Assembly (NCBI GenBank): GCA_022453515.1
Contig: JAJNNY010000044.1
Span: 248,001-312,000 of the forward strand
Length of the DNA stretch: 64,000 nucleotides
From: Astrocystis sublimbata
Lineage: Eukaryota; Ascomycota; Sordariomycetes; Xylariales; Xylariaceae
Direction: 5' to 3'
A program made the translations under genes and the position numbers. This document shows positions 3,363 through 48,233 of this stretch, piece after piece (within the stretch, counting starts at the first letter, position 1; the number at the start of each line of letters is the position of its first letter). The notes below the pieces were generated by a model, which saw only the letters and a program-made list of their open reading frames with translations, did not search any database and was not told where the DNA came from.

Positions 3363-4628
3363 ATGGTTCCAAACTAGGTAGCGGCTATTAAAGCCCATCC
3401 CCTCGGCGCACCTCTCGAAACGGCGCGCGCATCACTCGGCGAAATCGCCAGACGACCCAATAACCTCGATACAGTCAGCCACGAAGATAAACACAACTAC
3501 AACCCCCCCGGAAACTTTCCTTATTCTAACGAGCCTCCAGCCCTTCGCAACCCAGAGTTTTCCCTTCTTTTCTCACTAGAAAGCCACCCAGCCTCCCGCC
3601 TTCTACCTTCTCCCACAGGCCATAGTAACCTCAGCAGCGATATCCTAAAGCTTATTTCTACGATCGCTTCTATATTATCCATCCCGAACAGATCAAACCT
3701 AACTTACATACCGTTCTCACCCGCAAATCCAACATCGATATCTAGGAACAAGTCTACAATACCGTTACCGAATCTACCCCTCCCCGAAAAGCCATCTCTT
3801 CTATCCTACAGGCGCCATAGCGCCTCACCACAAGCAGTATTACGAGTTCTTCCGAGAAACGCAACCAGATAAACAAATTACTTAGTAATAAACTTAGCGT
3901 TATATACATCGACATTCCGAATTTCTACGATACTTTTTAGGGCGGCATCCCACAGCTCGAGACAATATCCGAAAACATCTTCCAAAAGTACGCTCAAAGG
4001 CCACAGCCACTCTTTCGACAAAACTAAACCGGATAGCCACAAAACGCCAAGCAAAACAGCGTTCTCGCCTGGCTCGCCGACGTTACCAAACACTTCCTAC
4101 AACTAGCGCAGCCGTACAGATCCACAGTACGGAAGCCATTGGCACAGCCCGACACGCCACTAGATAACTCGGTTACGAATCGCAAGCTAAATATTAGCTT
4201 TATAAACGACCCAAAGGCCAACAAAGCCGCAAAGTACCATTAGTCGCATATCCTAATACCTAGCGAGCTAAAAAGCAACCCGAACAACGATACAGCATCC
4301 AAAGCCCACCTCGATATCGCAAGATACGTAAAAAAGGTCTTTACTTCTCAACCGACCCGCCGCTTCGTTTTAGCCTTTACTTTGTGCGGAGATTAGATAC
4401 GGCTTTAAAAATTCGATCGGCTCGGAAGCATTACATCGGAAAAATTCAACATCAACAAGAACGGACAGCGTTTCGTATCGACAGTTCTCGGCTTTCTTTG
4501 GACGGACAACGAGGCCCTTAGTTTCGATCCCACGATCATTTAATCGGATCACCAACAGTATACCGAGATACGACGGGACACGAAAACAGAACGTTTAATT
4601 CTAGACGGAATCATCAGACCGGCGCACG
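3363..4628 (+). pseudogene. FunK1-type fungal kinase, N-terminal half
   Basis: The frame opens at ATG 3363 with a FunK1-like N-terminus (AAIKAHPLGAPLETARASLG; later FSLLFSLESHPASRLLPSPT). It shifts frame near 3675 and continues in one frame to 4627 with TAA/TAG interruptions. Diagnostic FunK1 blocks are NIDI*EQVYNTVTE, IYIDIPNFYDTF, RRFVLAFTLCG, FDRLGSIASEKFNINKNG and FVSTVLGFLW. The gene stops abruptly at 4625-4628, where LINE endonuclease sequence begins. The missing kinase half lies on the minus strand from 47930 downward, and joining the two at CACG keeps the frame. FunK1 proteins are a large fungal kinase-like family of poorly known role, often found in repeats. Stop codons and the frameshift make this copy dead. 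Confidence 0.85.
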
Positions 4629-4691
4629 ACGCACCAGCAGCGCTTTTTTCCCACCAGGGACCTACTATAGATCACAATTAATAGCATCCTA

Positions 4692-5375
4692 TATATCAAT
4701 TTCTACCGCGCGCCGGATACCACGCCCGTTTTTGACTATATAACTTCCCTAGTCCCTAGAGGCAAGCTAGTAATTAGGGGCGATATTAATAGCACAGTTT
4801 CGGCCTACGAGCCAGAAGCTCGTAACCGCGCCGGAGGGCAAGTCCTCGCCGACTGGAGCGGCGAAAGTGGTATGGCTTTCATAGGGGTACCCGGGCAAGC
4901 TACACACCGAAGAGGGCATGTAATAGATATGGTCTTTTCTAACATACCCTATGTGGATACGGTAGTTGATCACACAATCGCCTCTGGCTCGGACCATTTC
5001 CCCCTACTCACGTGGGTGCCACTGGACACCCGCAGCGCACCGCAGGAGCGATTCCGAGTCAAGATACTGCCAGGAGACGAGGAGCGCTTCCAGACCACCC
5101 TGGCTACCAGCATGGCGAGTATAACTCCACTTACAAATAGCAGCACAGCCAGGGACACAGAAGCTTTTGCAGATCGTTTAGCTACCGCATATACAGCGGC
5201 GCTTAATATTGCCGGGACACAAGTCAGAGAAGGCACCAGCCCTTCCAAGTGGTGGACAGATGAGTATAAGCAGGCCGCCAAGGACTACCGAGAGGCGGAG
5301 GCAGAGGGTTTCCGGCTTGGGCGGATCGAGCCAGGTTATTCTACAGAGCACCGGCACTTCCTGGCAACAGTGTAG
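4692..5375 (+). pseudogene. LINE ORF2 endonuclease (EEP) C-terminal half and linker
   Basis: Open for about 220 codons with motifs of exonuclease-endonuclease-phosphatase LINE nucleases: NFYRAPDTTPVFDYI, GDIN (the GDFN metal-binding motif), then TIASGSDHFPLLTW with the SDH catalytic triplet. The N-terminal half of the same nuclease (IDVVHIQEPWT) is on the minus strand near 48090. The frame is open into the linker before RT and stops at 5373-5375 (TAG), probably from CAG. Confidence 0.8.
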
Positions 5376-6640
5376 AAGGCCAAAAGGGACTATTAGCGCA
5401 GGATTATCAGCGCCGCCAACACAGATACCGCAATATACAAGGTAGTAGCGTGGCATAAAAGGGCACCGGGCCTGCAGTCCCTGCCGCTTATCCACGAAGG
5501 TCGAGTAGTAGAAGACGAGCTGGGCAAAGCAGAGCTCCTTCGACAGGCGATTCTGACCCGCTTTAACAGTAGGGACGACCTAGTTGGCGATCCGCTTGAG
5601 GGGTGGCGCAGCGACGAGGCCACCCTCCCCTGGAACACAGATACTACCCTCGAGGAGGTAGAAGCACACACAATTAGCGTTTCCAGCACCTCCCCTGGAC
5701 CTGATGGAATTACAGTAGACTTGCTCCGCCTAGGCTGGGAAGCCAGTAAGAGCCATATACTGGCGCTCTTTCAGCGCTGCCTCCAGCTCGGGTATCTCCC
5801 GCAGCGATAGCGGCATGCGGAAGTAGCAATAATTCCTAAAGTGGGAAAAAAGGACATGTCATCTGTGCGCTCCTTTCCTGCCTGGGCAAAGGGTTTGAAA
5901 GGCTCGTAGCCAAACGGATTGCCTGGATAACGCTCCAGCGTGGCGTTCTGAGCCCGCAACATAGAGGGGCTCTGCCAAAACGCTCCACCATGGACCTGGC
6001 TTGCGCGCTCCTCCACGACGCAGAAATAGCCCTCAGTAAAGGATATACAGTCACCCTGCTCACAATAGATGTCCAGGGCGCCTTCGATGCGCTGCTAAAG
6101 CGGAGACTTCTCTACAGGATACGCTAGCAGGGCTGGTCGCTCCCCCTCCTACGCTCGATCGACTCCTTCCTGTACGATAGGGCAGTAAGGGTGCGCCTCG
6201 GGAGATCTACTACGCCGGACTATACAATGGCATATAGCACGCCGTAAGGGTCCCCCCTTTCCCCAGTGCTATATATACTATACCTCGCAGAACTCCTTAA
6301 GCTGGACACAGAGAGGCGCTTTAGATATACTAATAATATTAGCTTCTATAAAGTCTCGAAATCGGCTAAAGAAAAAACCGAGCTTTTAAAAAGCGATATT
6401 ACTTAAATAATAGCTTAGGGAAACGAAAACAAAATATATTTCGCCCCAGAGAAATGCGAGATGATCCATATTACGCGCGGCTCAACAACAGCCAATCCAT
6501 CGCTAGAGATTCCTAGACGGCTCCGAGTAGAGCCGGTACCCCTTCCAACACAAAGCGCAGAGGTCCCTGCCCTACGCTGGCTAGGGGTCCGGTTTAACCG
6601 CAAGCTCACCTTTAAGCGGCATGTCAACGAGCGCACGATG
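5376..6640 (+). pseudogene. LINE reverse transcriptase domain, eroded
   Basis: RT remnants continue in mostly one frame after the TAG at 5373-5375: the linker ending in LPWNTDTTLEEVEAHTI, finger motif SPGPDGITVDLLRL, then QRCLQLGYLP, AIIPKVGKKD, TVTLLTIDVQGAFDALLKRR, SPVLYILYLAELL and RFRYTNNIS. The Asp-Asp of the polymerase active site is Asn-Asn. There are several TAG codons, so no functional RT is encoded. Confidence 0.75.
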
Positions 6641-7250
6641 CCCCTGTCTCGGCACAAAATGTGTATCTCGGCTTCCAAAAGATCATGGAGAGACACAAAA
6701 ACGTGCATATTAAGTGGTGTCCAGGGCACTGCGGCGTCAAAGGGAACGAGAGGGCAGATAAGCTCGCTAAGAGTGGAACTGATATGGCCCCCGACCGGGA
6801 CTTACAGCCCACAGTATATGGACTACGTGCAGAGGCGCGCAAGACCTTGAACAAGGCACGAGAGGCTCTCTGGGGACAATGGACTGAGGACCTCTCGGCA
6901 CGCTACCGCCGCTGGAAGCTCGAGTACAAAATATCGTGTCCACTAGAGCTCCGGGTGCTCACCCGGCAGGAACTACACTAATGGCTAGCCGTGCGGACTG
7001 GGCACAGCAACTTTGTATGGTACCACCGCCGTTTTCACCACGAGGACGCGAAGCTTGAATGCCCCTGCGACTTTGCCGCTGCACCGGAGCACTTTGTACG
7101 CTGCCGCCGGGCATGGCGGCATTTTCGGAGAGGCCGGAGCGGCCTTGGAGGCGGTCCACCTCGCTGACAAGCTGGCGGGAGTACCTTGAGAAGCTAATGA
7201 CACGCTCAGAGGCGTTCAGAGCATTTGTTCGCCTAACGGGGGTGTATGGG
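6641..7250 (+). pseudogene. LINE RNase H domain and zinc-motif C-terminus
   Basis: The frame at 6661-6981 carries HIKWCPGHCGVKGNERADKLAK, the RNase H C-terminal motif of Tad-clade LINEs. After a TAA at 6979-6981 the same protein continues (LAVRTGHSNFVWYHRRF) into CPCDFAAAPEHFVRC, the cysteine-rich C-terminal motif of these elements. The first half of RNase H is missing or has shifted frame around 6640. Confidence 0.75.
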
Positions 7251-7689
7251 GATCTGCGCAACCCCTACGCAAGCGCGGGATAGGCGGCAGGATAACGGGT
7301 TGGGCACACGCCATACGCACCTAGGAGTTTTTGGAGTTGGCGCAGGGTTTGGCTTATCTGTTTTGTTTTCTCTCTTTTTATTCCCTTTACTTGCCCGTAG
7401 TATCTCCGGGCACGGCACGGCAAACAGTACTCTACACCCTCGGGGTGGCGATCAAGGCCTACGGCCAGCTTTCTTTGCTTGATTTCAACATGTATTAGCA
7501 CATAGGCGCGCCCTTCAACCGGAGGAAGGGACCCTCTACGAGAATACCACGGCGCCTGTTGGCTAGATTTGTCTGATGTGGGAGCTGCTCTTACAGCTAG
7601 ACACGCCCCTATGCTCTATGGGAGGCTTCGGAAAGGAACCTCGACTGATTATTACCCCATTTCATGGGCCTTTCCCAGTCGTTAAATAG

Positions 7690-7710
7690 AATAATAATAA
7701 TAATAATAAT
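7690..7710 (+). repeat. (AAT)7 LINE 3' tail
   Basis: Seven AAT units directly after the LINE 3' UTR. Tad-type LINEs often end in short simple repeats rather than poly(A). Confidence 0.8.
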
Positions 7711-9551
7711 ACTCCTCAATGCTACCCTAGATAGAAATTTCATCATTGCTATTGAACATTACAATCTGTGTAGCTCAAAGTCCATAACACGCAAAAGAAC
7801 AGATCTCCTGTACCCCAAGCTCTCTAATGCTCCGAATCACCAGGGCTCTGCCATTCTCATAGTTTGCGTGTCCTAAGGACTTTCAGACATGATTAGTAAT
7901 GTCATCTTATTGAGAAAGAACGCTCTGTATATGCTGGAGGTAGGTACGTACCAGTTGGTGAAAGTTCAGACTGCTGCAAGCATCTCAGTCTTCAGGGTAG
8001 TTATGTTTTATTGGCCGTTTCGATAGGTTTCTTCTCGTGCTGCGCTTTGGTCTGTGTGCTGCTCAAGGCGGCTTGACCTTGGGCAGTCGGCTTATTATTT
8101 CCCGCTGCATCAGTTTGTGGGTACATCTTTTGCCAGACCAACGGAGGTGTGTTATCCATGACGAAAGAGAATCACAATGCTTGTTGTAGATGATAAAGAA
8201 GAAGCTGTGGATTATGACGAGACATACTTCGCACAGGTATGATGGAGCATGGATATTCACTACTTATATTTACTATCATCCATGTCCATAACTATATCTA
8301 CAGAGGCAGTGGTCCCGAGAAATCCTACATCTTTTACTCGTGAAGTATACTATGATGCGGCCAGCTCTACGAAACACTTGCTCTTCTCGACCACTATAGC
8401 TGCAACTCCATAGATGGTTGTCACGAAAGGGTATGTGGAGGGTGTGGAGGTCTGTAATGGTACTGGTGGACTGTAGAGTTATCTGCATGCCGTTGGCTAT
8501 AATCAAAGAAGTATCACATCGCTTGCAATGCGAGCTTGTACTTTTGGACAGAATTATCTTGGATATAGCCAAATTATCATCATACCAGAAGAAATCCCGA
8601 CCTGCAGACCCTAGACATCGATAGGCCGATGATCACCCCACGCTACACTATATGCATAGTCGCACTACATTCCTTCTATGCCTGATGCGTCTAGGCTAGC
8701 GAGATAGGGTGCTCGAAGAACCCGTCGAGCCAGGTCTTCGAGACCCCCAGCTTAACCATACGCTCGGAGAAAGTCCCTCATTCATCCATCACTTACCCAA
8801 ATCGCCGGAGTCCAAAAACCCCCGTGTTGCGCTGGTTTTCTTCGAGCCTGTATTATGCAGCCTAGGATGATGGGAGGATGCGGGTATCTCAGGTTTAGCA
8901 TAAAGAAGACCTTACCTTCTCTAAAACGCACATGAGAAGACCAAATAAGAGAAGTGAGACGGCTGTGCGGATGGCTTTCCGCGATACCTTCAGTACCTTG
9001 ACCCACCGCCTTAAGGGTGCAGCTAGGTAGCAAGCCCCAGAAGTAGACTGCATATTTCCTAGTAATAATCTGGGTTTACCTGCAGTGTTAGGCGAACATG
9101 CGATCGCCAGTGCCCCTGAATAGGGTAGCCAAGCGTGCCGAAAGTGCCTTCTTCCGTTACGCTGTTTCTCTGATTCAGTGGAGCTTCAGATAAACGGTAG
9201 GTCACCAAATTGGTCATAATGTAGTCATCTGGGACTGGGGACTTTTGAGAACGGCGGTGTCCCGCGGAACAATCCCACTATCATAGGTCTCTCCGAGTTC
9301 TCTGGCCTCTAGCGTTGATGTGGTGAGGAGCCTCTGCCCAATTTGGAATTGAACACAAAGAGTTCAATTTGTTTGAGGTTTAGCGTACACACCCTGGCCG
9401 CTTTCCTCTCTTGGCACTATGTTAAGGTCGGGACTAGACTACCGAATAGTCACGTGAATTGGCGAACTATCAAGCCACCTTAGGATCTTGTTCCTCTCGA
9501 CTACTAAATAATACACTATTAGTGAACTGTAATCGGAACGATAGCGGCTTT
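7711..9551. other. GC-balanced DNA without recognisable gene
   Basis: Base composition is normal, unlike the AT-rich flanks, yet no open frame longer than about 100 codons looks like a real protein. It could be intergenic DNA or a decayed gene with introns that I cannot reconstruct. Confidence 0.4.
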
Positions 9552-11327
9552 ATATCGAAAGCATTTTATCCTTATTGAATCCGATCCCGTAGTTTTTAGT
9601 AAGTTGATGTATCTACTCGGCGCGCTAGAATCGCTACTTTTCGAGGATGTTTTTTCCCTTAATGAGCCGCTTTTTTTACTACGCCTAGTATTTGCCTTAA
9701 TTCTTGTTTTCCCTACTACCGAATACTATAAGAATCTCAAGGCTGCCGAGGAGTCTACGAGAGAAGTATACACGTTTTATAGAGCGGATAAAGATATAAT
9801 GTAGTTTAGGCAGACTATTAATAACGCGTGTGGGCTATATGGCATTCTATATGCGCTTAGTAATAGTAGCGCACGAGACCTGCTTGGTAAGTTGCTGCTT
9901 TGCTATTATGATAGGCTGCTGATTAGCTACTGATTGGCAAAATAGACCCCTTTTGTCCTATTGCTAACCTGATTGAACGTTGCTCTTACTTGCTATTAAG
10001 TGAGCGTGCGCTATTGCTTAAACAATCGAAAGAACTTAAAGTTGCGTATATAGAAGTGGTATAATAGGGCAGCTTAGCCCTACCTATAAGCGTTAAAAAC
10101 AATATTAATTTTTATTATATTTGTTTTATAAAATTATATAAAACTAGTTATCTATATATATTAGATAGAGATTAATAGGGCCTAATAAATATAGGGTTTG
10201 TTTTTAGCCCTAAGGAAAATATATTTACCTAAGGCAGGCTGGATTTAGTCTGTTAATATATTAAATATAGGAATAGAAGTTTTAATTTTTTTTTTATAAT
10301 ACTATAAAAGAAATAAACAGTTATTACTAGCTAAAGAAGCAATAAAATCCGGTATTACTTTATTTTTTTACGCTAGTATATATATAGATTTGTTTTATAT
10401 AGTTCTGGCTCCCTAATTAATCCTTTAACCAGTTTGTTTAACTAATTACTATAATCGGCTAACCGAGGTAAGGGAGTTTTAAAAAGCGGCTATATATAAT
10501 AGTATCTAGCTTTTATAGTCGGAGGCATTTATATCAGCGCCGGCGTATATAAGTATATTAATAATATTAAGAAATTTAGAACTCTTATCAATTAGGTTAG
10601 TAAGCGCGAGGTATAGTAAAGTTAATTAACCTATAAGTATCTAAACTTATTAATTTATATTAGCCCTAAATTTGATTAATATTATAGTAATATTAGTTTA
10701 AGCGTATATTATAGCCTAATATAATATAGTCCTACCAAGCGTATTATAGGCTTTAATTAACTCTAGGGCTAATCTTAGCTAGTAGTTTAAAAAGTTATTT
10801 ATATTTAGGAAGTTATAGTTAATATAAAGTAATATTTTATAAAATAATATTAACCTTTATAATACTTAGTACTTTTTTTAAAAGTCCAAGCTTGGTTTAA
10901 AAATCTCTTAGATAGAGTTTAGCGAAAGCGCTAAATAATTCGCGCTATATCCTATCGCTAATTCTATTAAAACTATATTAAGTATTATATTAATAAAAAT
11001 ACTATATTATAGTTAGTTAATAATGTTTTAAAAAGTCTATAATATATATATTTCCTAAACTTATCTATTTATTTTAGTTCTATGCTAATATTTATTAGTA
11101 TTTTATATATCGCTAAAGCGGACTATATCCCTAGATATTACTAATAGTAATAAATACTATACTAAGAATAAATTAGTATTTTTTTAGGCCTTTATATTAA
11201 AAAATAAAGGATAATCTTATATAAAGCAAGCTAATCCTATAAGGATCTATAATATCAACCGATATTTCACATAATTGCTAGTATTCTCTTATTCCAGCAA
11301 TATTACTATTTTAAACAAGAGCGAAGA
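9552..11327 (+). pseudogene. RIP-eroded ubiquitin C-terminal hydrolase with C-terminal extension
   Basis: The first 330 bases follow peptidase family C12 closely: KHFILIESDPVVFSKLMYLL, LVFPTTEYYKNLKAAEES, then FRQTINNACGLYGIL with the catalytic Cys kept. One frameshift occurs near 9930. The second half reads LKQSKELKVAYIEVV, NNINFYYICFIKLYK and YLYILDRD. The catalytic His of the usual FHYVCFV motif is Tyr, a C-to-T change; the Asp region is kept. UCH homology ends near 10300, but the same frame continues about 340 codons to TAG at 11325-11327 with only TAA/TAG interruptions. The extension (GGIYISAGVYKYI, RIIGFN*L, AKADYIPRYY) is unrecognised. The enzyme would cleave ubiquitin from short adducts; this copy cannot. 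Confidence 0.75.
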
Positions 11328-11699
11328 TAGGTGATTTGTAAGGAATAATAATGGGCGTACGGTAAAACAGGTTCTTAGACTGACGGTGGATCTGTGTGAT
11401 ACTGCGTACAAGGTCATGGCGTGCTACTCTGAAAGTCTGGTTAATGGGGGCAGGTCGCTATTGGCTTCTCAGTTCTTCACGTAACCTTGATTCTGACGGC
11501 CCTTGTTTCCTGCCTTTGGTGTTTCGCTAAATACCCGGCGAGAGTTTTTTATCTGGCGCGCGATATATGTATAACTTCTACGTACGATACGCTTGTATCC
11601 AATTCTGGGCGTTATACTTATAAAACAGATCTGTTTCTAAGGCTAAGCAAACTATTATAAAACTTAAAGGCTAGATTAGCTAAGAGTGATTATTTAAGT
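11328..11699. other. Short GC-balanced interval
   Basis: Between the eroded UCH frame and the left flank of the Fot-like element. I see no gene. Part may be the distal end of the split F-box/ankyrin gene. Confidence 0.35.
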
Positions 11700-11874
11700 G
11701 GCACGCCTTACCTACAATTACTAATTACCTATATAAGAAATGGGATAGCTAGTGGTAAAAAAGCATACTGTTCTTCCCTAGGTGTACAGTCGGGCAATTT
11801 GCCCCGAAACTGTTTAAAATATCTTTCGTCCGACGAGAGCTAGACCCAGGCACTTAGAGAAGCACCACCTGATA
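11700..11874 (-). pseudogene. Distal part of the F-box/ankyrin gene, left of the transposon
   Basis: If the transposon at 11875-13812 is removed together with one TA, the minus-strand ankyrin frame passes from GYTPLIY into QVVLL followed by TAA (CAA in the ancestor). It then continues through an ankyrin-like stretch containing TKDILNSFGAN. That makes this the interrupted end of the gene at 13813-14452. The segment is AT-shifted and has further stops. The assignment is an inference from frame continuity. Confidence 0.5.
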
Positions 11875-13812
11875 AGCAGGACCCCTGCATCACGACCACC
11901 CCCCATTACGACCAGGCCCTTGGCAACACCACACCCACACCTTCCTAAGCTATTTAAACCACTAATACGCTGTTTGAAAGCCGTTTTCTGGTGTTTTTAT
12001 TAGTTTCTAGCGTTTATAACCTCTATAACCTTTTTTGTTTCTGTATCCTCGCGTTCTGGGATGTTTTTATTGGCGGCTTCGTTTGCATATACAATTCTTC
12101 GGCGCAATTCGCGTTTTGCCTTTCGTACGTGCGTTATACGAGTAAACAACTTGTAAGGCGCTATTTTAACCGCCTTACGCTTGCTTTTATTGTTTTTTTT
12201 AATTTTGGCTTCTAGAATTGCGACTTTTGCCTCTAAAAACGCGATGGTTTGAGCCTTCTGATCTAAAGCCTTACTAGCCTTTGCAGAAAACAGCCTTTGC
12301 GATGGATTATTAAATAAAGGGTAAGTTGCTGCTAGCTTTTTTGTATTAGCTTGCAGTTATTGGCTTCCAGAGGGTGTTTCTATAATGATTTTAGAGGTTA
12401 TTGTTAAGAAATTAGGTATAGCGGGTCGTTCTTCTGCTGTAAGCGTTAGTACTACTGTTTTTACAATACCCTTCTTTTCGAGCATCACGTATTTCGAGGA
12501 TAGCGGCACCTAACGATCCTTTGGACATATCCCAGCTGTTGCCCAGGCCTTTTTTATGGTTCTTGGCTTTAGAGTGTCTTCACGAGCCACTTTATACGCT
12601 ATCACCATGTCTTTTTTGGAAGGCTTTAAGCCAAGGCGCCCTATAGGTGTCTCCCGAAGCTCGTTTTTCAACTTTTTCTTTAATAATCCGAAGACTCCTA
12701 CATCCAACGGCTATAGTACGTAACTATAATAGGGTTTATAAAACAATAGCCATATCTTATTTGAAAGGCAAATCCAAAGGAACTCGTTATTTATATAAGA
12801 TTTATAGCTATTATATACTAAAACACACCATATTTTACTAAAACAAACGCGAATATAAAGAATAAACAGGTCTTTTAGCTACTTTAATACAATAATATTA
12901 CTAGTCTACCTATTAGGAAAATAATCAAATCGCCAATTTTTAAACAGACCGCGATTTTTATCTGGAAACTACTAACTTTAAACTTAAACGCCCTTCTAGA
13001 TTAGCAACGGCAGTAAAGTTTTACCAGTGGCGCTAATATACTTAAAGGCAGTGATCTATTCGCCTTTTTTAATAGCTCTCTTAAAAGTCTAGCGTATAAA
13101 AGTATTAGTAATCACAAAATAATTACTACTAATGCCTTAAGCCATACTTATCTCGTTAGTATTAAAAAAACGTTCTAAAGGAATATTTGCTATTTCTAAG
13201 GCCTTAAGGCGATCGAAAAAAATATTAATATTAACCGCTATTACGCTGTTAATACGCGTATAATCGATAGATTTAAATCTAACAAACTTAACTGCTTTGT
13301 TTCAAGCTAAAAACCGGGCATACTACCTTTTATTAAGGTTTCTATCTATACTAAAAGCTTTTAATATATATTTAATTATAAGTTTAAAAGTAATATATAA
13401 TAGTATAAAGCCTAGCCTAGCCTGCCCTATAGCCCAGTCTGCTAACTAATATTTATTATAAGCAGACAATACTTAAAGGTTAGCGTAAGCTTCTTTTCGA
13501 GTGGGGATACTGCGAAGCCGATAGCGTAGGTACGATCTATTAATATCCTAGTTACGTGCTGCCTTCGCAACTAGAGTTCTAAGCTAAGCTGCACGAAAGG
13601 CAGCCGCCGCGCGGTATTAATCAGAAAACAAAGGTATAACGATAAGGAGCAGTTAATTCTAAAGAGAATAAGCGTAAAAGATTATCGTAAGACCTAGATA
13701 CGGTCGCGTTATTAAGCATTGTTTAATTAGAGTGGCTGGGAGTAATAGCGCGTTTGCGGGGGTCCCTGGGCCTGGTCGTGATGGGGGGTGGTCGTGATGC
13801 AGGGGTCCTGCT
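11875..13812 (-). mobile_element. Fot/pogo-like DNA transposon inserted at TA
   Basis: 45-bp terminal inverted repeats at 11875-11919 and 13768-13812 differ at one position (T versus C), and each is flanked by TA (11873-11874 and 13813-13814), the target duplication of Tc1/mariner-pogo elements. The length of 1938 bp fits Fot1-type elements. A minus-strand transposase relic contains YVL*PLDVGVFGLLKKKL and IKKAWATAGICP, the C-terminal end of DDE_1 transposases. Other parts are RIP-eroded. The element sits in the F-box/ankyrin gene. Confidence 0.88.
12300..12740 (-). pseudogene. Fot/pogo transposase, C-terminal part
   Basis: The minus frame from about 12740 reads PLDVGVFGLLKKKLKNELRE, then KPSKKDMVIAYKVARE and TIKKAWATAGICPKDR, ending at TAG at 12510-12512; it continues beyond in the same frame with VMLEKKGIVKTVVLTLTAEE. 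PLDVGVFG is the hallmark after the third acidic residue of pogo-type DDE transposases. Upstream catalytic domains are not recoverable because of AT drift. Confidence 0.7.
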
Positions 13813-14452
13813 TATAGATCAAGGGCGTATACCCATAGGCATCCTCGGCATTCGGGTTCATTCCTTTCGCCTCTATAAGGTATGTTATTATTTCCAAGAG
13901 ATCTGCAGCTGCTGAAACGTGAAGAGCCATGTAATTATTGTTATGTAGAGAAGCCCCTTCATTGATTAGGAACATTGCCGTCAGACTTTGTTTATTGATT
14001 AGAGCCAACAATAACGGCGTCCAGCCTCGGATGGTCCGTATATCGATGGATACTCCATTTTGGAGCAAGAGCGCAACACTGTCTCGGAGGCCATTCAGAG
14101 CAGCTATGTACAATGGTGAAAGCTGGTGGTGAAGTGTTATTGATTCCCAACCTGTGGGTATAGCCCAATGCTCCGGGCGCAGAAATGTGTGTGAGATCTC
14201 GGTATCGAATGTCCCTTGGAGGTCCGCACCCGCATTGATAGCTGATTGTAATGCCTTAACAGAGGCATCTTGGCGTACATATTGACAGATTCTGGGCAGA
14301 GCTGAGGATCGGTCGTATTTGACATTATGCTCATAGAGAGGTTGGATGTATTGTGATTTCAGATACAGGGAACAACGGCAGACAGCCGCGAGGTCTGCAG
14401 GTTTGCATGAGGCCGCAATCCGCCAGTGGAGCTCTGTAGGTAATCTAAGCAT
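13813..14452 (-). pseudogene. F-box/ankyrin-repeat protein gene, disrupted by transposon
   Basis: The frame starts at ATG 14452 with an F-box-like segment (MLRLPTELHWRIAASCKPAD, residues 1-45) and then ankyrin repeats (LSPLYIAALNGLRDSVALLL, WTPLLLALINKQSLTAMFLI, YMALHVSAAADLLEIITYLI, YGYTPLI). F-box/ankyrin proteins are usually substrate adaptors of SCF ubiquitin ligases. The open frame runs on to 13727, but its last 29 codons are the transposon terminal repeat, so the native protein is interrupted after GYTPLIY. The remainder lies at 11700-11874. No stop occurs before the insertion, so the transposon may have been the first inactivating event. Confidence 0.75.
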
Positions 14453-15517
14453 GATTCATACTTCAGAAGAGCATAAGGAGAAAGAAGAGGTTGAGAGGAC
14501 TGGGCGCCTTTTTATTTCGCTGATGACTGGACTAGCCGACCGCTTCACGAAGCTAGGCGAAGGCGTAATTACCTAATCTAGGAATATGCCAGGACAATTT
14601 GAGCTTACCTGCTCGAGATAAAAGCGGGCAGAGCAATAACGAAAAACCTATTGAGAGGGCTTCTGTAAAAAGTGACAAGAACAAAGCCGATGGCTGGAAA
14701 TGGGATCAATTCTCTCTCGGGGCTTGGATCAAACGATTAACAACATGATAGCGGAACATGAGTCGAAGGCATATAACCTGATGATTGGAATTGAATTGTG
14801 TGAGACTAGGCCAATTGAACATGTCTGGAGTGATCTAGTCGCTCAAGTGAAGAGATTGTATCTTTGAAACAAGTACCTCTACGTTACGGGCTACACTAAA
14901 CTTGTGAGTGCTCTCATGAAATCTCAAGCTTCCTCCCTCAGCTTTCGCGATTTGGTAACCAAGCCAAACGATGCTTTCTGCTCTGATATATTTAGCTGGG
15001 ATAGTAGATTCTGGAGCTATGATATCCATCAAGTTCGCACATGTTCGGAAAGATGGAAGTTGCTGACGAGCAAAAGAAAGGCCTTGTGAAGCAATATATA
15101 AGACGGTTGGTCTACACTGACGGATCCAGGGGAGTCATGAGAACCCCTCATATGCAGGTGTAACCAACAGAAGAAAGCCAGCAGCAACCTGGGCCTTGGC
15201 CTTGATGCCTAAAGGTCCGAGGGGCTCCGAAGCCGCCCTCAAGGACTATTCGAGAGGGTTATAAATAGAGGGCATTCGTCCTGCCTGATCACAATCAGAA
15301 GGAAGGACATGGACCCTTTAGAGCCCTAGAGAATTATTAGCTGAATATGAAGCAATTCCAAGTCCTAGAAATCCAGCCCTTGTCACAAGGACCGCCAGCA
15401 CTAACAACTGCTGATGTTGCTAGATGTCAGCTCATGATTGCGAAGACATGAATATAAGGCAGGACATTGTCGTCAGCGTGGCGGTGAAGTACAAAATCGG
15501 TCATTTTCGTAGCAAGT
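14453..15517. other. No gene recognised
   Basis: GC-balanced. A minus-strand frame at 14835-15032 (65 codons) could be an exon remnant, but I cannot connect it to anything. Much of the sequence reads as non-coding in all frames. Confidence 0.4.
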
Positions 15518-16174
15518 TCAAAGTTTTTGCTCGTTCCTTCGATCTCTGGTCATCTGCCAATGGGCCAAGATAGCGCATAAGAGCGCAGCATTGGATGATG
15601 GACATTGACATCCCTTCACTTTCCACTTTTTCCCCAAGAGGTTCAAATACGCATCTAGATCATCGACGAACTGATGGATACTTGTGAAATGCTCGTCCAT
15701 GCCGATGTCCGATCCTTCTCCTTAGGAAGCATCTCCGTATAAGTCTGGACCTGCATCAACTGGGTTCGCCACACACTATGACATATAATAGTAGTGCCAT
15801 TGCTCGATAATACTACTATCAAATGATAGTTTGCCAAGGCGATGCCAGTGTTTTCCTTGCGTAGGAACCATGTTTATCAACTCATTGCAAATTCCTTTGC
15901 TAGCTGATACCCAACCTTGGCTGTTCAACAAACACCCTGCTTTCTCAAACATATTGGCAAGTGTTTCTCCCGCGCTTTCAGCATTCCATCCTTTATCGTA
16001 TGGGATGTGGACAATTTTGCGAGCGTCGCGAATAAAAGTTTCGATATAGGGTCGAGAATGAGGCAGTCCCTGTCCAAGATGCACCAATGGCCTTTCCATT
16101 CCGAAAATCCACATTTGTGATGGGAAGTTCATGTCCACAGTCGATTGTTTGCGGCGCTCCGTTTTTGTGAGCAA
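15518..16174 (-). pseudogene. Unrecognised ORF with two in-frame stops
   Basis: The frame 16174 to 15518 is open for 218 codons except for TAG at 15776-15778 and TAA at 15722-15724; each is one C-to-T step from CAG or CAA. It reads protein-like, for example ESAGETLANMFEKAGCLLNS and FVDDLDAYLNLLGKKW. I recognise no family. GC content is normal, so only light RIP or ordinary decay is needed. Alternatively the two stops lie inside an unrecognised intron. Confidence 0.4.
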
Positions 16175-17081
16175 TCGCCAAGTATCGAAGATAGAGTTCG
16201 AGAAGTTCCAGGCTTGAAACTCGGTGATCGCATATGCAGTCTATACGCCTCGGTGATTACTAGCTACAAGCCGCGAGTCAAAATATCTCCGAGTACTGAG
16301 TTCAGTGTGCTGATGTCCCAATGACAAATAGCCAAGGTCTCCCTTTCTCCTGAGCTTCTCTTTCGTGTTCGTAGTGGATCATCTGTGGTCACTCTTTCTT
16401 TTGCAATGTAATCGAATAGTCACAAACAGAACGCAGCTAACAGGTTACACGCTACAAAAATCAATGATCCACTGCCCGCTGCAAAGTCTTGTATCATTAC
16501 CTGCAAGACCAAGGATACCTGCAGTATTCCCGAGAGACGACGAGGCGTTACAGGCCGGCGCACGCAACGAATGTCTGCTCAAGAGAGACAGCCACACAGC
16601 GCTATCCGGAGATTCCGCGGGAGCTAGACTCCTGGCTACGCAGGATGGGCCAGTTTGAACAGGGATCCTTCCAACTCGACCCTCGACCCCAGCTATGGGC
16701 TGGTCGTGGTGATTCCCTAGAAACTGTCTATCAAATTAGTTTAATATTCATTTGGTAATTCCGGGTCCCCTCCCACGGGTGCAGAATGTCTTGAGCACCC
16801 AGTAGATGTAAAATAGGTGGGAAAGGCGGTCAACAAAGGTTACACCCACCCGCCCTTGTGCATTAGCTCCTGGAGATGTATCATCGGTCCATACAGGCAT
16901 GATAGATGATGAACACAAGAGGTCCGGTGCAGCCATTCAGAGGGCAGGGCCCGGATTGCTAGGGCCGCACATCACGTACGCCAAGTTGGACTCATGGATT
17001 GCTCAAAGGAGTATTGGATGAATCAATCAGAAAAAGCTACAATGAGATCTAACTCTGTTTCGGAACATCTACTCAGCTCTA
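16175..17081. other. No gene recognised
   Basis: Overlapping plus-strand frames of 89-97 codons lie at 16365-16758, none with a recognisable domain. The rest appears intergenic. Confidence 0.4.
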
Positions 17082-17899
17082 CTACTTGTGGTTCTTGAAG
17101 CATCCCCCTTCTATTGCCCGGGTAAAGTCATCTGGCTCTGACATGAGAACAGGCACTGATTGTTCAATCTTGTCCAACCAATTCAATACATCTCGACGAG
17201 CAACTTCGTTCAAACCACAACCATGATCCCCTTCTTTCGCTATATGAAGAGTAACTGGTCGCCCCTTTTCCTTATATCTTCTTGCCAGAACTATCGAGCC
17301 TTTGCATGAAACTTTGCTGTCTTCGAGTGGGTGAAAGATATGTAATGGCGGGGATGATGGCGGAACGTGATTCTCCACGGACATAGCCTTGATCTGATCC
17401 TTTGTTGGCTCTTTGCCCAGTAGGTTGTTCCGACTCGTATGGTGACAAAGGTCGTCTTCCATCGACGTGATAGGATAAACCCCTACTATGGCCTTCACGT
17501 TCAGGTGCTGGACTGATGCGAGATAGGCTGGGTGGAACCCAGCTGAAAAGGCGAGGACGATCAGTGATTTTCCTTCGAAATTATTGAGGTACGCCAGGAG
17601 ATCTCTCTTCGCTCGGTCGCCGACTGGGTAACCGTCCGTTTTGATGGTCGTGTAATTCTTGACCAGAATGGTGTCGTATCCATTTTGGGTAAGCCATTTG
17701 ACATTAATATTGCCGTCATATTGCAAGCCAATATACTCATATGCTCCTCCAGGAACAAGCAGTACGGGACAGGGACGTTTTGGTTGCGCAACGGCAACGA
17801 AGTACTCAAAATCCACGCTGGTGGTATGCGTTAGTAATTCAACCGGCTAATACGTGGAAATCGTGTTAGAACGTACCTCGCATCTGGACTATGCTCCAT
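17082..17899 (-). CDS. Alpha/beta-hydrolase (esterase/lipase-like), two exons
   Basis: Exon 1 is 17899-17877 (ATG at 17899). An intron of 59 nt at 17876-17818 has donor GTACGT, branch TTACTAAC and acceptor CCAG. Exon 2 is 17817-17082. The phases match and give 252 residues. The protein shows the alpha/beta-hydrolase fold order: oxyanion-hole segment VPGGAYEYIG, nucleophile elbow LAFSAGFHPAY (Ser in a G/A-x-S-x-G box), acid loop FHPLEDSKVS and catalytic His in EGDHGCGL. The layout and size are closest to small BD-FAE/Aes-type esterases. The first Gly of the elbow is Ala, which is tolerated in some relatives. There is no signal peptide, so it is probably cytosolic. It appears intact. The substrate is unknown. 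Confidence 0.82.
17818..17876 (-). other. Intron of the alpha/beta-hydrolase gene
   Basis: 59-nt intron with consensus donor GTACGT, branch point TTACTAAC 11 nt before the acceptor and acceptor CAG. Removing it joins AG to C, giving Ser, in frame. Confidence 0.8.
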
Positions 17900-40900: not shown

Positions 40901-41215
40901 TAGACTTTCCGTTTCTACCTATCACGGCTATTCCAGTTCTTAATGCGGGAGACAAACAGCACCTGAAGCGACTTGCGCTCCGTTTGAAATATAAATAGAA
41001 ACTGTATGCAAGCCAACCAACTAGTATGCATGGTCTCGCTTACATAGTCGGCCAGGTCACACTTCCGAACGATTACTATTGTTTCCAACTCCTGAGTAGA
41101 TATGGGGTTGTATAGGGTCACTACATTCACGGTAATATGTTAATCTCCAAGGCTGTCTATGCATGCGTAATGAAGCAGATGCAAGTTATCTAGACTCGAT
41201 CACGATCCATCTAGG
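40640..41215 (+). repeat. Inverted repeat pair, copy 2 (partner 28560-29050)
   Basis: Diverged reverse-orientation copy of 28560-29050, about 11.6 kb away. It is enriched in T and A relative to the partner, consistent with heavier RIP. Confidence 0.75.
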
Positions 41216-41929
41216 CCGGTCCCCCTGGAGTTGTAGAGGATGTTGTGAGAGCATACTCTACATATAACAGAACTTATCTCTCGATAGCAGTAAGTAGTAG
41301 CGCGCCTTCCAAAGATTAATCAGTCCATAGGAACGCGGAAAAGTAGCGCTTCTGCTAGCTAACCCCCAAGCTATATAACCGGTACAAAAAGCGGGGTACT
41401 AAACACGAGGCAATAAATAGCAGACTTAGCGTAGACATAGCGCTTTAGTTATACTATACGCCTACCTAAAGTACTAGCCTAATATTATAGCTAGTAGAAT
41501 CGGATATTTTTAACTAATCTTACTAGCGGGCTATAACTTCAGGGAAAAAGCTAATAAGAAACCTAAGTCTAATCAGATCTAATTTTAAAGTCTATTTAAA
41601 GATTAAGTATACTAATTCGATAGCAGCCTTTATATACGCCCTAGCACCATTTTACAAAAACTATGGTTGAGAAAAGAACCTTTAAAGGCTTAACGTTACT
41701 AGGCAAACGTTATACAATAGTTATAACCCGCTTTAGAGCTATTATATTCGTAATCACTTACTTTAGCTCTACTTTAGTATCGATATACAGAATCTTCGAA
41801 GTAGTAACGCCATGTCTAGCACTACGATTACACTTTTTATACGAGCTATTGGGTAGAATATACACTTTACCATAGGACAGGAATAGGATCCTAGTACCTT
41901 TACCGGCATTTACTAAGCTGCAAGGAAAG
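41216..41929. other. AT-rich DNA, no gene recognised
   Basis: AT-rich with one 70-codon plus-strand frame (41663-41875) of no recognisable character. Confidence 0.4.
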
Positions 41930-43160
41930 ACTTAGTAACCTTTCGCCACATTTACAACGAGCTGCGGCTCTGCTTCGAATTCCCAAACGATACAGTACGT
42001 AGTAAAGGTAGCGAAAGCAACGATATAAATAACAACGATCCGTGGGCCAGCATTACCTTTACATTAGTTAACCATCCCGATTTACCGAGCTCGTCACCGC
42101 TCTACCTGTCCTTTATAACAAGAGACCTACTAGATCAACCCGTACTAAAGATAGTACTATTTAGTCCCAAGGAATAGAATATCGTTAAATACCATAGTAT
42201 CTACCATAAGAATTGCCATCTATTTCCTAATTTACCCCTATATACTCATCTTTAAAGTCGGTTAGTTTATATTGCGTCCGTTTAGCTCCCGGTTTGTATT
42301 ACTAACCTACTTTCTTTAGCCAGATACACTCGAGACCTTCCTAACCCCGTCCACCGTCGCGATCCTTAATACTTAACGCCGAATAAAACGCCTTCTGATC
42401 CAAAGCTTATACTTATACCATTCCAGCGAAAAATAAAAGCCCGCTCCGAGTCCCCCTAAAACGATCCGTATCCGGCTCTATTTCGCTAAAAAAAGGTAGT
42501 TCAAACAACGCTAGCAACAACGAATTGGATAGTATACTTGCGCCAACTAGTATGGATATCGATATCACTGAAACTAAAAAGGTTATAAATAAATTCAGGT
42601 CCCCATACCTAAACAGAGCAATTTGCTATACTATCTCAGGTAATTACGAGCCATAGTACCCAGGTCCGCCTATCGGCCCTAGCGTCTAGGCCTGCCATAT
42701 TATTCCTTAATACCATTACCATCTTTACCCCATTATCGGCAGCTAATATAATAATGAAAATAAGCCTAGGGAGAAAAGTTTGCGCAGGCTTCAAAAAGCC
42801 TGGCAAAACACTTAGAGCCCCAGGAACGGCATCCTTTTAATAAAGCACCCCCACGAGGTTTTCGATGTACAGCTCATTTCTATCCATCCCCGCACGTTCC
42901 GTATCCGGGTATTTGTACTATATAACGCCCTAACCAGGTTCGATAGGCGGAAAGCATTAATACCCCCAACCATCGATCATAAAGCCCTCTAATATTATTA
43001 CGAGATATACTACATCGAGAATATAGCAGTAGAAAAGCCGAGTTTAGATATTACCTCGCTTAATATAAGCAAAATAGCTATATCTGCGATAAGTACGCCT
43101 TTTAATACGAGATACGACCTCCCCGCGATACCGAGCTCGAGCAGTATACAAACAAAGATC
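41930..43160 (+). pseudogene. RIP-eroded HNH-endonuclease-like protein
   Basis: The first part (NELRLCFEFPNDTV, ASITFTLVNHPDLPSSSPLY) and, after a frameshift near 42490, a second frame read as a fungal HNH-type protein: NRAICYTISGNYEP, ACHIIP then YHYHLYPI, SPRNGILLIKHPHEVFDVQL, SIHPRTFRIRVFVLYNALTR and PTIDHKAL. The three HNH elements (His in ACHIIP, Asn in RNGILL, His in HPHEVFD) are all present. TAG/TAA codons interrupt it, for example between V and ACHIIP. This is a different subfamily from the relic at 45731-46981. Confidence 0.65.
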
Positions 43161-44079
43161 GTTATTAATAAAATAAGCGACCTATCTTAGAGATAGCGGT
43201 CGACCCCGTCTAAACAAAATTAAACCACAGATATTTCAGGACAGGATAACCTCGTAAAAAAATTCGGAACGGTACTATACAATACGAAAAAAGATTCAAA
43301 TACTGTCGAGTAAAGGATTGCCAGCTTAGTAATAAAATCTCTTCATAGCATCGTTAGATTCAGGAGGATATAATAAAGGGCTATATCACAGCTTAAAACA
43401 ACCGCGAGTTTTTAATAGATATAAATTAGGAACTACAAAAGTTTAAAACACACTAACTCACAAATCGAGGTTACTGAATTATATTAAAGTACAGAATTAA
43501 CTATCAAATTTATTAAAAAAAAGTAATCGAGCCACCTCGCATAAGTAGATAATATTAAGTTATATTATATAAATATAGAGCTATCTAAAACGATTTCTAA
43601 GTAACAGACCTAGTTCTACTAATTAGATTTTACTTTAGACTTATATACCGATAATAAAATTAAAACAGTCTAGCATAAAATTAATAATAAGTTAGCTACA
43701 TTTTAGTAAAATACCTAAACATTAAAGCATAAGCTTCCTTAAGTACGCTTATATTATTTTTAACGAAATACCTAGAGACCTCGCCTTTTTTATAATAAGT
43801 CTTACGCCCCTGTTTTTCAGTAATCACAAACCTAACGTACCGCTCTTAATCTAAAAAGAATCTCCGCCTACTAGCAAAAAATACATCTGCTTCCACACCC
43901 AGCTATATATCTTATTAGCGTACTAATGCCAGGGATATTAAATCTTTATACCTAGAAATATAATATAGCCATTCCATTTATACAACTAACGATATCGTAT
44001 TCCTCTAAAACGTATTAAGCCTACAGATCACAAAAAATATATTATATATTACGTTTAGCTATATGCTTAGCTATACCAT
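43161..44079. other. AT-rich DNA, possibly the distal helicase tail
   Basis: Very AT-rich; scattered minus-strand fragments may continue the RecQ relic, but I cannot support a boundary. Confidence 0.35.
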
Positions 44080-44932
44080 AGTATTCGAACCCTTTCCCAC
44101 GAAATAGTACCTCCTTTCCCATAAGGAAATTAACACATTAACTCGAGGTGAGTCTGCTATACAGCTTCACGAGCGTAAACAATGCCATAGTACATTTAGT
44201 ATAGTCTACGGTTTCTTTAGCAACATCTGCTCTACAGTTATCACACGCGGCGCCACAACTACTTTAAAAGAATGATTCTCTAAAATAGCGAAAAAGTTCA
44301 ACACAGCGACAATCAATATCGTTATTATAAAAGCTAATAATTTTTTCTAATAGCGCTCCTTGTCTTTTTTTAGCTATCAACTACTATCACTCTTATCGAT
44401 CATCTTATGAAGCGTAATAACGTCGCTATAGCTAAAAAAATAGGTAGCAATCCAAGGGCTTGCCGTCCCGGCCCGTTTCCTAATAATAGCCTTTAAAGCT
44501 CTATAGTAAGGATTAATAGATTATAAAACGCATGTCTACTTTGTTGATACCCATACTAAATATAACCGTAGCAACCACAACCTTGATCTTGCTCTCTTGC
44601 CACCCTTTTTGTATCCCAGCCTTTTTATTAGCGGTAACTAATGTAAGATAGTATAAGCTACAATACTACAGTCTTTTCGAAAGCTTTCCGTAATACTTTC
44701 TACGGACCTGCGAGCGAGGGTATATACGATACCGATCTATCCACCGTAAGTTGTTTTTAATAAAACCAGCAATCGTATCCATATTACTCTTGTCCTTTTT
44801 ATACACGGCATATCGCAGATTTAGGCGATTAAAGCTCTGGACAAAGAGTTGACACGCGTCTATATACAGGCTGCTTTTCACGTCGACGATAATATTGCGT
44901 GTTACAGTAGCAGTAAGAGCTATCACTAGAAC
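44080..44932 (-). pseudogene. RecQ-like helicase fragment
   Basis: The minus frame begins with ALTATVTRNIIVDVKSSL, then LFVQSFNRLNLRYAVYKK (RecQ linker between helicase domains), KGWQESKIKVVVATVIFSMG and INKVDMRFII (motif V), SYSDVITLHKMIDK, and after a frameshift CRCVELFRYF and CDNCRADV, the zinc-binding subdomain. The order is that of RecQ family helicases, including the telomere-linked helicases of fungi. The N-terminal ATPase motifs are missing; the fragment starts abruptly at 44932 next to the C/A homopolymer. Stops and a frameshift make it dead. Confidence 0.75.
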
Positions 44933-45033
44933 TTACACACTACCATCCACTCACGCAAGTCTCTTTAAGTCTAGTCATTCGAATCCAACCAAGGGTACAC
45001 ACGAGCGTGTCTCCGACCTTGGTGTACTTGCCC

Positions 45034-45064
<31 letters not shown>

Positions 45065-45730
45065 AAAAACACAAAGACAAAAAAAAGAACTACATAACAC
45101 CAATTCTTCCACATATCACCCACCACCCACCCGTATCAGCTCGAGTAAGTATCATCGACTATCGTCAGGTTATATTACACCGCTAAGTAATAATACCGCC
45201 CAAACGCGAATTTCCGACGATTTGAACGAACCGATACACATAATTCCAACTATCGAAAAAGGAGGTCGGAAACAATAAGTGCTTTCCAGGCAAATCTTTT
45301 TTACGAATTACGATGTTTTATTTTGGGCTCTCTTTTTAGCTTTCATTAGCCTACTAAAAAAATAGGCTGGTTTTTTTGGGTATTGCCTTCTAGTTAAAAC
45401 GCGTAATAGTATTATTAGTACTAAGACTTTAGAGAACACCCCCCCACCCCGTACTATATCGCCAATCTTATTCGCCACGGGGCAACGCACTTCGCTAAAG
45501 GTTGCCTAGCTTTAGTTGTTCGTTGGAAGTATAACTAAGCTAGCTAGGCGGGAGACCACAACGTATACTCCCTTTCTAATATATATATATATATATTTGC
45601 GCGGTTACAATCGCGGTCGCGGTCGCTATCGCTATCGCTATTGTTAATATTGTTAATTGCTTTTGTCCTTTATCTAGTACGAGCCTACTTACTACCTACT
45701 TTATACGCTTTTCGTGCTTACTCGAAGCAA
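44933..45730. other. Low-complexity and simple repeats, no gene
   Basis: Holds the C24-A15 tract (45031-45069), an (AT)n stretch near 45580-45597, and a hexamer run of TCGCGG/TCGCTA units at 45611-45641. The 127-codon frame across the C tract encodes polyproline-polylysine and is an artefact of the homopolymers. Confidence 0.7.
45031..45069 (+). repeat. Homopolymer junction C24-A15
   Basis: 24 consecutive C followed by 15 A. The true length is likely variable. A similar C13-A9 junction lies at 58425-58446 on the other strand. Confidence 0.85.
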
Positions 45731-46981
45731 AATGGCAGCGCCCCTCTACCGCTACTAGTTATTACTTGAAGGTATCCTTAACTTTTCCTTACCCCTACCA
45801 CCCCTAGGGACGGAGCTACGCAACTATACCAGCCGTAAATTCCGCGACATCTGTTAGCACTTTAACATAGGCCTGCCTATCGACAACTATAGCCGTCCTC
45901 GTCTTATTTTTTATACCTATAAGTATTCGCTCTCAAAGAAATCTAGAGATTACTTCCTACGCTTTTTTTTCAGAGCCATCGATCTCCCGATCGATAGGCA
46001 CAAACCTATTAGCTTCGGCCATATCCGCGCAAAGTTTTTTAACTTTACTGAATACCTCTTCGATAACTTCTTTCTGCTTAGTAACGTTTTGCTACAGTTT
46101 GGGCTACTATACCAATCGATTGCTAACATCTCACAGTGAAAGCTTCCACGAAGAAGACTCCGTAGCTTTTTCTAGCCTTATATTCTGTAGCCCAAAAATC
46201 GCAAAGTTACAGCGGGCGAGAATATATCGGAACTAGACCCCAACTATCAATTCTTCGGAGGGACTGTTTTATCTGTGACCGTTATCGCTATGTAATATCG
46301 CGAAAATTTGATTTCTCCGAAGCGATCAAACAGTCTCGGGCTCCAAGCGGCCCTCGAGATAATGAAGGCAGCCTGATAGCGAACGATCCAATTGAGCCGG
46401 CTCCGCTAGAAGTCGCCCATATCTTACTATACTCTCTCACAAGAACGAACGAAAAGGGCGAACTAGTACATATAGTCCACTTATGCCGTCTCCTAAACTA
46501 AATGCCCGTCTAGGATACTTCTAAACAATCTGCGCTTACAATACTTGATATGTTCGATATTAGTATTGCCGAATGGATTCGCGGCCCTAAAATTAACCGG
46601 CTACGTAATACCCTCACTCTTACTCGTAACTTTCATCAATATTTTAGTAATTTTCAGGTTTATTTCGAACCTGTTATTAATAGAGACCATGTCTATACGG
46701 TCAGAACACATGTTTCTAAGGACTTTTTCTTCCGGCCAGCACTTCCCATAACCCGCGAGCTCTATCTCACTCCCGAGCGAACAATCGAGCCTCCCGCGCC
46801 TCGGCTACTAGCGATCCATTATACTATTGCACGTATCCTGCACCTATCGGGCGCCAGCAAATATATCGATATAATATATCGTGACATAGAGGAACACGGG
46901 GTGCGGGCGGATAGGTCCACCCCGCTAGGTCGCTTCATATCTCTCGCCATTAGCGAACAAAGCGCTTCTATTTGTACCTAG
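45731..46981 (+). pseudogene. Fungal HNH_2-type protein, eroded
   Basis: The N-terminal part from ATG 45732 shows YTYKYSLSKKSRDYFLRFFF. The nuclease core from 46240 reads RRDCFICDRYRYVISRKFD and LEVAHILLYSLTRTN; the C-terminal half reads NTLTLTRNFHQYFSNFQVYF, PPAPRLLAIHYTIARILHLS and DIEEHGVRADRSTPLGR. This order (short N-domain, CxxC-type HNH entry, LEVAHIL-YSL, Asn-x4-His) matches the fungal HNH_2-containing proteins. Interruptions are TAG/TAA plus one frameshift near 46250. The last 143 codons are open. It converges with the FunK1 C-half. Confidence 0.72.
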
Positions 46982-47019
46982 AAAGCCAAACAGTAGGTGA
47001 TTGCAGCGCACCTACAAGG

Positions 47020-47930
47020 TTGGAAGTATTTGAAAAACATAGATACGTTCCAATTATGTTTTTATTATTATCTCTAGTTAAGCTAATATACTCCGATCTA
47101 ACCGAATACAGCTTCCTAGCCCAGCCCCTTGTAATGGATACATATCTAGAATAGCACCCAAAAGGACTCGAGGTCATCCATGAACGTATAATCTTCGCTC
47201 ATAAGAACACCGATCGCCATAAAGGCCCTCGTACCGGTAATTCCCTTTGCCCCTGATGCCTCTACTCGATCAACCTCGATTGCGAGGTCTAGATCAATCA
47301 AAAACAAAGATAAACTCGAATCCTCGTTACCCTCATTTATTATAAAATTGTTAATCGAGATATCTCTATAAAAAAGGCTAGCCTTAAGAAAAGACTCGTG
47401 TCCTCTAATACATCCCTCCATCGCGGCGAATAAGGCAGCTCGGGAACTTGCCTTATAGATAGGTTCCCCATAGTCGCAGATAACGAGGCGTCGGTATATT
47501 CGATTGTGAAGGGGTTCGTTATCATGCTTTGTTGGAGATACAGAACCCGAACAAGACCGCTTACCAGGTGGGAGAAGGGCACCAGTCTGGCTGGATGATC
47601 GCTTCGAGCCCGTAGAGCTATTACGCGATATAGTTTCTACGGCCAAGGTCTGCGGCCTACGTGCACGGCCAGCTCGGTAGTTGCTTGCTCTTGTAATATC
47701 CAGCCTTCTCTAAACATTGCTTTAAACATTATTATCTTTCGTTTGTATACGCACTGTCTTGTGATAATAGTGTCACGCTACGTTGGTAACACCTCGATGT
47801 ATCGCTTTTCGTAATAGCTCGTATTCCTTATTACGTTCCGGAAACTGCCACGAGTCCTTGATAACAAACGGCCTCGACTTGTCTCCTTCCAGGTAAGCTT
47901 TCCAGTAGATGGTCGCACGGCCTACTATGC
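47020..47930 (-). pseudogene. FunK1-type kinase, C-terminal half
   Basis: Minus strand from 47930: GIVGRATIYWKAYLEGDKSR, VIKDSWQFPERNKEYELLRK (N-lobe Lys and following), then after stops an open stretch 47646-47146 with ALFAAMEGCIRGHESFLKAS, YRDISINNFIINE (catalytic loop, His of HRD changed to Tyr by C-to-T), FLIDLDLAIE (DFG-like) and GTRAFMAIGVL. It ends in DLESFWVLF followed by TAG where TGG fits. It begins exactly at the 47931-47934 CACG junction with the LINE. The N-terminal half is at 3363-4628 (+), and the two join in frame. Confidence 0.88.
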
Positions 47931-48233
47931 CGTGACCCTTGCCCCTTTTCGTATATAGCAGAGAACTCTCGGCCGTGTGCTGAGCTCCTCGCCCCAGGAG
48001 TCAACTGGGGAATAGAGATCGTAGAACGTATTATTTTACGTAATGGTTCCCTTGAGTGTCCATGGTTCCTGTATATGAACGACGTCTATTTTGCGCTCTG
48101 CGCACTCTGACAGGATGGCTGTATGTGGGCCCGGGGAGCGATGCACATTATGCCATACCTCGTGTAGCCCGGTTATTTTCTGCTGCCCTGCGCGCCGGCA
48201 GGGCCTACGATGAGCGCCTTGGAAGCGAGTCAT
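47931..48233 (-). pseudogene. LINE ORF2 start: endonuclease N-terminal half
   Basis: ATG 48233 opens ORF2. VHRSPGPHTAILSECAERK and VVHIQEPWT supply the Asn/Glu-containing first half of the EEP nuclease. TAA at 48036-48038 follows GTIT (CAA or similar before). The frame then reads NNTFYDLYSPVDSW and RPRVLCYIRKGARVT up to the junction. The second half of the nuclease resumes at 4629 on the plus strand. Confidence 0.8.

Follow-up and report, generated by a model that had tools for sequence, protein, structure and literature searches.

RESULTS

Two genes split at reciprocal junctions

In a 64,000-nucleotide stretch of the Astrocystis sublimbata genome (C129:248001-312000; here called the window), a decayed gene for a FunK1 kinase and a long interspersed nuclear element (LINE) are each cut in two, and the halves are exchanged between two junctions. 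We read this arrangement, with a probability of roughly 93%, as a single balanced inversion of positions 4629-47930 that was made by end joining. The two junctions are reciprocal, they hold the same four ends in opposite orientation, and reversal of the segment between them restores both loci. Because this complementarity holds simultaneously in two unrelated genes, it is more than chance would produce. As a first-pass annotation of the window had proposed, one inversion of 4629-47930 accounts for both junctions and leaves the net length of each gene unchanged. The features concerned are the following.

4625-4628, plus strand: junction A, CACG (same junction in contig C79)
47931-47934, minus strand: junction B, CACG (from the sequence)
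4629-47930: proposed inverted segment, 43,302 bp (from both junctions and the complementary halves)
3896-4628, plus strand: FunK1 (Pkinase_fungal, PF17667) N-terminal half, decayed, 244 codons ending at the junction; the profile covers 4190-4621 (profile search)
47119-47931, minus strand: FunK1 C-terminal half, decayed, 271 codons starting at the junction (profile search)
47935-50218, minus strand: LINE 5' half, whose 5' end lies at 50218; it holds the open reading frame 1 (ORF1) region, with a cysteine-rich pattern noted on visual inspection, and the beginning of the endonuclease
4629-7691, plus strand: LINE 3' half, with most of the endonuclease, part of the reverse transcriptase (RT) and the C-terminal part of RNase H; about 870 bp are deleted internally at 6633/6637
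7692-7711, plus strand: LINE 3' tail, (TAA)n

The switch between FunK1 and LINE sequence at 4625-4628 (plus) and 47934-47931 (minus), claimed in the first-pass annotation, was borne out by searches of the 42.6-Mb, 189-contig assembly of this one genome. A search with the PF17667 profile placed window positions 4190-4621 (plus) at profile positions 3-150 and window positions 47937-47140 (minus) at positions 151-387. When translated and searched separately, the two FunK1 halves matched profile positions 3-148 with 133.9 bits and positions 154-387 with 226.4 bits, both over the family cut-off of 24.1 bits. When joined, they gave a single match to positions 4-387 with 377.2 bits, exceeding the sum of the separate halves. 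Homologues of the joined protein numbered 1,564, and the best 120 of these were all compared with it. The junction was spanned by all 120 and was free of gaps within 10 residues in 116, and identity around it averaged 10.5 of 20 residues. Among the matches listed, the closest relatives of the joined protein came from Ustulina, Xylaria, Nemania and Hypoxylon.

The LINE halves fit together in the same manner. An uninterrupted copy of the element is present on contig C114, where it has a (TAA)n end and a clear flanking direct duplication of 11-13 bp. Searched apart, with no prior joining, the 5' half matched C114:10138-9587 and stopped at window position 47933, while the 3' half matched C114:9578-7570 and began at window position 4635, leaving a gap of 8 bases between the two matches on C114. 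The joined LINE aligned to the C114 copy with 70% identity over 4,329 columns and 107 gap positions under lenient scoring, and the printed stretch across the junction was gap-free. Under default scoring, one C114 match spanned positions 1803-4366 of the joined LINE, crossing the junction at 2370. At the protein level, 31 homologues were listed, of which 26 matched the 251-residue endonuclease part used and 17 spanned the junction, 15 of them without a gap. Both pairs of halves are complementary, and the frames given by the first-pass annotation were confirmed. Homologues that span the reconstructed joins, which it had named as a check, were found for both genes.

The window copy of the LINE is a dead element. 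It carries stops, and about 870 bp are missing between 6633 and 6637 relative to the copies on C46 and C114. Its endonuclease matched PF14529 with 34.9 bits (cut-off, 27.4) and the C-terminal part of its RNase H matched PF00075 positions 92-139 with 36 bits (cut-off, 25.8). A 95-residue RT fragment scored 22.7 bits against PF00078, under the cut-off of 29.6, and the ORF1 region of the 5' half had no Pfam match.

Support for the junctions in the assembly

The chief technical alternative is misassembly, in which one or both junctions would be chimeric joins. Support was judged from assembled contigs, and here the two junctions differ. Junction A is reproduced exactly in a second contig, C79 (18,093 bp). 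This contig matches window positions 2973-18806 at 99.98% identity and doubles back at an AT-rich site, so that the junction occurs in both fold-back arms as well as in C129. This second contig makes misassembly at A unlikely. Junction B occurs in C129 with no second contig, which weighs against the inversion, and the existence of fold-back palindromic contigs (C79, C12, C42 and C170) means that chimeric reads or joins could have arisen. On the other hand, a chimeric join alone would not account for a second, reciprocal junction at a distance of 43 kb in which the same genes are completed at identical codons, and no long repeat connects the two breakpoints. Furthermore, both pre-inversion joins were absent from the 42.6-Mb assembly when their patterns were searched with up to 3 mismatches, while a pattern search run in the same way recovered the present junctions at every expected place. 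With these points taken together, we regard misassembly as very improbable. The same pattern searches led us to reject a coexisting uninverted version within the assembly, since neither pre-inversion join was present and the control patterns were found.

Fold-back palindromes were seen at C79:1-4543 (L027), C12:43800-45700 (L046), C42:1-10000 (L044) and C170:103001-113000 (L045), with arms 98.7-99.9% identical (99.0% for C12, 98.7% for C42 and 99.9% for C170 in the pieces examined), and are probably sequencing or assembly artefacts. The end of contig C129 (C129:314001-314817) is AT-rich, with about 21% GC across its last 817 bases.

The presence of the fusion on two contigs, C129 and C79, could also indicate that it belongs to a dispersed chimeric repeat, an outcome that the first-pass annotation had listed as fatal to its claim. 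This was not so. The 99.98% identity extends over 15.8 kb and reaches 14 kb past the junction, so we take C79 and C129 to represent one locus here. Among at least 22 matches, junction A was crossed only by C129 and by C79 (twice, by fold-back), and among at least 6 matches, junction B was crossed by C129 only; no other LINE or FunK1 match among those listed crossed either junction, and searches with exact junction patterns gave a consistent picture. The probability of a dispersed repeat is, in our estimate, negligible.

Junction sequence and the mode of rejoining

CACG is found at both junctions, as first annotated. Its reading as a 4-bp microhomology had to be softened. The residue after the junction His is Gly in the window, versus Ser in 28 of 31 close relatives (at least 64% identity), the others having Asp (one) or a gap (two); in the best 120 of 1,564 homologues, the same position holds Cys in 75, Ser in 29, Gly in 13, Asp in 1 and a gap in 2. 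Given the prevalence of Ser among the close FunK1 relatives, the G of CACG at junction B may derive from the LINE, and the true microhomology may be the 3 bp CAC. The difference would equally be explained if FunK1 acquired a point mutation later. In a simple model with equal base frequencies, chance alone would give an overlap of at least 4 bp with a probability of 0.016.

No long homology was found between the breakpoints in the 4 kb around each; the best match had an E value of 0.57 in any orientation and 2.0 in inverted orientation, in agreement with the first-pass annotation. With the best inverted match at only E 2.0, long inverted repeats are unlikely to have recombined here, and we rejected this candidate. 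LINE twin priming was also dropped, as its product would have the inverted parts next to each other, with no reciprocal split of FunK1.

Because homology at the breakpoints is lacking, we infer that the process consisted of two breaks and end joining. The junctions show microhomology of 3-4 bp and no net length change, within the 0-4 bp and little or no loss that characterize end joining. The ancestor would have carried a FunK1 pseudogene inside a block with the composition of repeat-induced point mutation (RIP) and, about 43 kb away, a LINE copy in unmarked DNA. Two double-strand breaks, one in each element, would have released the segment now at 4629-47930, which would then have been rejoined in reverse by end joining over a 3-4 bp CAC(G) match. 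The net length of both genes would be preserved, possibly with the exchange of one base. Replication-based template switching could have made the same inversion, as microhomology of 3-4 bp is compatible with that route too. However, duplications, deletions or inserted fragments are frequent products of template switching, and the length of both genes is unchanged here; as a mechanism, it appears unlikely.

The internal segment, rather than its flanks, would be the part that moved. This choice bears on the first-pass statement that most genes of the window are reversed relative to the ancestor, which holds only with the flanks as the point of reference.

The LINE ends and independent insertion

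If the LINE was once continuous, its two outer flanks, which today lie 42.5 kb apart and inverted, should have bordered one insertion site. Two candidate copies of a target-site duplication were noted there.

7712-7730, plus strand: degraded candidate for the 3' copy of the target-site duplication (suggestive only)
50219-50236, minus strand: candidate for the 5' copy of the target-site duplication, adjoining the LINE start (suggestive only)

The 20 bases upstream of the LINE start (minus strand, from 50219) can be aligned with the 20 that follow the tail (from 7712); CCCTAG is identical in both, and the gaps are small. In a first run, 30 of 20,000 random pairs scored equally well or better, and under the kindest of five scorings the count was 35 of 19,982. 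The match weakened under harsher scorings (104 of 19,971, 320 of 19,976 and 236 of 19,980) and was lost when gaps were forbidden (9,535 of 19,987), which counts against the proposed inversion. A worn target-site duplication may link the LINE ends, with a strength that depends on the scoring; it is suggestive and not proof.

These flanks also bear on a different history, in which the LINE inserted twice, independently, into two FunK1 copies, or in which one insertion was truncated at its 5' end and another at its 3' end. Insertions of LINEs that are 5'-truncated are generally common, and several LINE fragments are present in this genome. However, the halves of both genes are complementary, no match to the FunK1 C-terminal half was found past the LINE tail in 7712-13000, and the FunK1 edge at junction A is unlike the flank after the tail (score of 2.5, which 10,372 of 19,982 random pairs equal or exceed). 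Independent insertion consequently has next to no likelihood.

RIP-like composition around the junctions

A RIP-like composition was used as a further marker of the original order. Change points were located by a search with two classes trained on hand-picked stretches of the window.

1-4628: RIP-like block, left part; likeliest change point 4413 (4407-4835) (composition)
41601-47930: RIP-like block, right part, proposed to have been contiguous with 1-4628 before the inversion; likeliest change point 47500 (47385-47530) (composition)

The two parts are alike, with TpA/ApT of 1.31 and 1.32 and (CpA+TpG)/(ApC+GpT) of 0.74 and 0.71, respectively. The corresponding values are 0.95 and 1.30 in the LINE 5' half, 0.94 and 1.16 in the outer neighbour 7712-9600, and 0.78 and 1.10 in the outer neighbour 50219-52000. 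The FunK1 halves are weaker in these indices than the surrounding blocks (1.07/0.78 and 1.06/0.88), and the RIP-like composition ends within 0.5 kb of each junction. With the order restored, the RIP-like parts form one block and the LINE falls in unmarked DNA. This composition suggests that RIP preceded the inversion.

Several observations count against this inference. The LINE 3' half is free of the signal only in (CpA+TpG)/(ApC+GpT), at 1.12, and its TpA/ApT is raised too, at 1.24. The change points lie inside FunK1, at a distance from the junction of about 0.2 kb for A and 0.43 kb for B, and the window contains further RIP-like blocks, such as 9601-13600. Moreover, the strand polarity of the signal has equal sign in both blocks today, except for -0.07 in the bin 47201-48000, and mostly opposite signs after the order is restored; it also flips within other blocks of the window. 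RIP strand polarity gave no date for the inversion.

A second split FunK1 gene

The genome has 13 matches to PF17667 and five strong-match FunK1 loci, on C179, C51, C129, C88 and C113, of which the C113 copy is truncated (124 bits). In this count, two C79 matches were assigned to the C129 locus, and four matches under 30 bits were excluded, two of them over the curated cut-off. The C88 copy is 87-89% identical to the C51 copy and also has its halves on opposite strands, at L034 7445-5809 (minus) and 4583-5601 (plus). Compared with C51, these halves overlap by 4 bp, AGCT. From this alignment, the split can be read as an inversion roughly 1.2 kb long at L034:4583-5808 (C88:679583-680808). No match spanning the far side of this inversion was found, so the 4-bp overlap is indistinguishable from a filled-in stagger. 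Two of the five strong FunK1 loci, those of the window and of C88, thus appear split by inversions, with 4 bp shared between the two junctions in each case (CACG and AGCT, respectively). A recurrent activity with 4-base staggered cuts that flips DNA at dead genes, instead of random breakage, could produce such a pattern; we consider this highly doubtful.

Other genes in the window

Outside the segment, an intact open frame resembling a nonribosomal peptide synthetase lies at 54466-57453 (minus), with AMP-binding, PP-binding and thioesterase domains; its closest named relatives are 84% identical (a record under the name Lasiodiplodia mahajangana) and 80% identical (Hypoxylon crocopeplum). Open frames inside the segment include a Ras-like frame at 21955-22434 (minus), an ankyrin-repeat frame at 13727-14455 (minus) and a BD-FAE/S9-like hydrolase at 17082-17846 (minus). 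No tRNA genes were found in the 64,000-nucleotide window.

DISCUSSION

Inversions are thought to be a main route by which gene order is shuffled in filamentous fungi (mesosynteny). The event described here is of an ordinary class and is unusually well recorded, as one genome suffices to read it nearly to the base. Junction chemistry would be hard to read where breakpoints fall in repeats or between genes. Here, two genes serve as rulers, making a balanced inversion without homology-driven recombination readable from a single genome. If the pattern at C88 proves general, split pseudogenes could catalogue the chemistry of inversions without a sister strain. No description of this inversion was found in the titles or abstract openings of the literature examined, and a search for papers on inversions and chromosomal rearrangements in Xylariales yielded none.

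Inversions within one fungal chromosome have likewise been described in Sphaerulina musiva, where the inversions and their breakpoints were mapped among isolates (PMC12778737). Those inversions were found by comparison of isolates, whereas the present one was found in one genome, from two split genes, to about a base. With respect to mechanism, canonical non-homologous end joining uses up to 4 bp of microhomology according to a review (PMC9779921), and the window junctions fit this range. For Ku-independent joining, the same review gives 8-20 bp from two studies in yeast and, from another, 3-16 bp accompanied by deletions; no deletion is seen in the window. Finally, in Drosophila inversions attributed to staggered breaks (PMC7584159), a short sequence at both junctions is the expected trace, as is seen here. 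In that system, the duplications are explained as filled-in overhangs of a site, whereas the 3-4 bp in the window were apparently common to both ancestral sites, because neither gene gained length.

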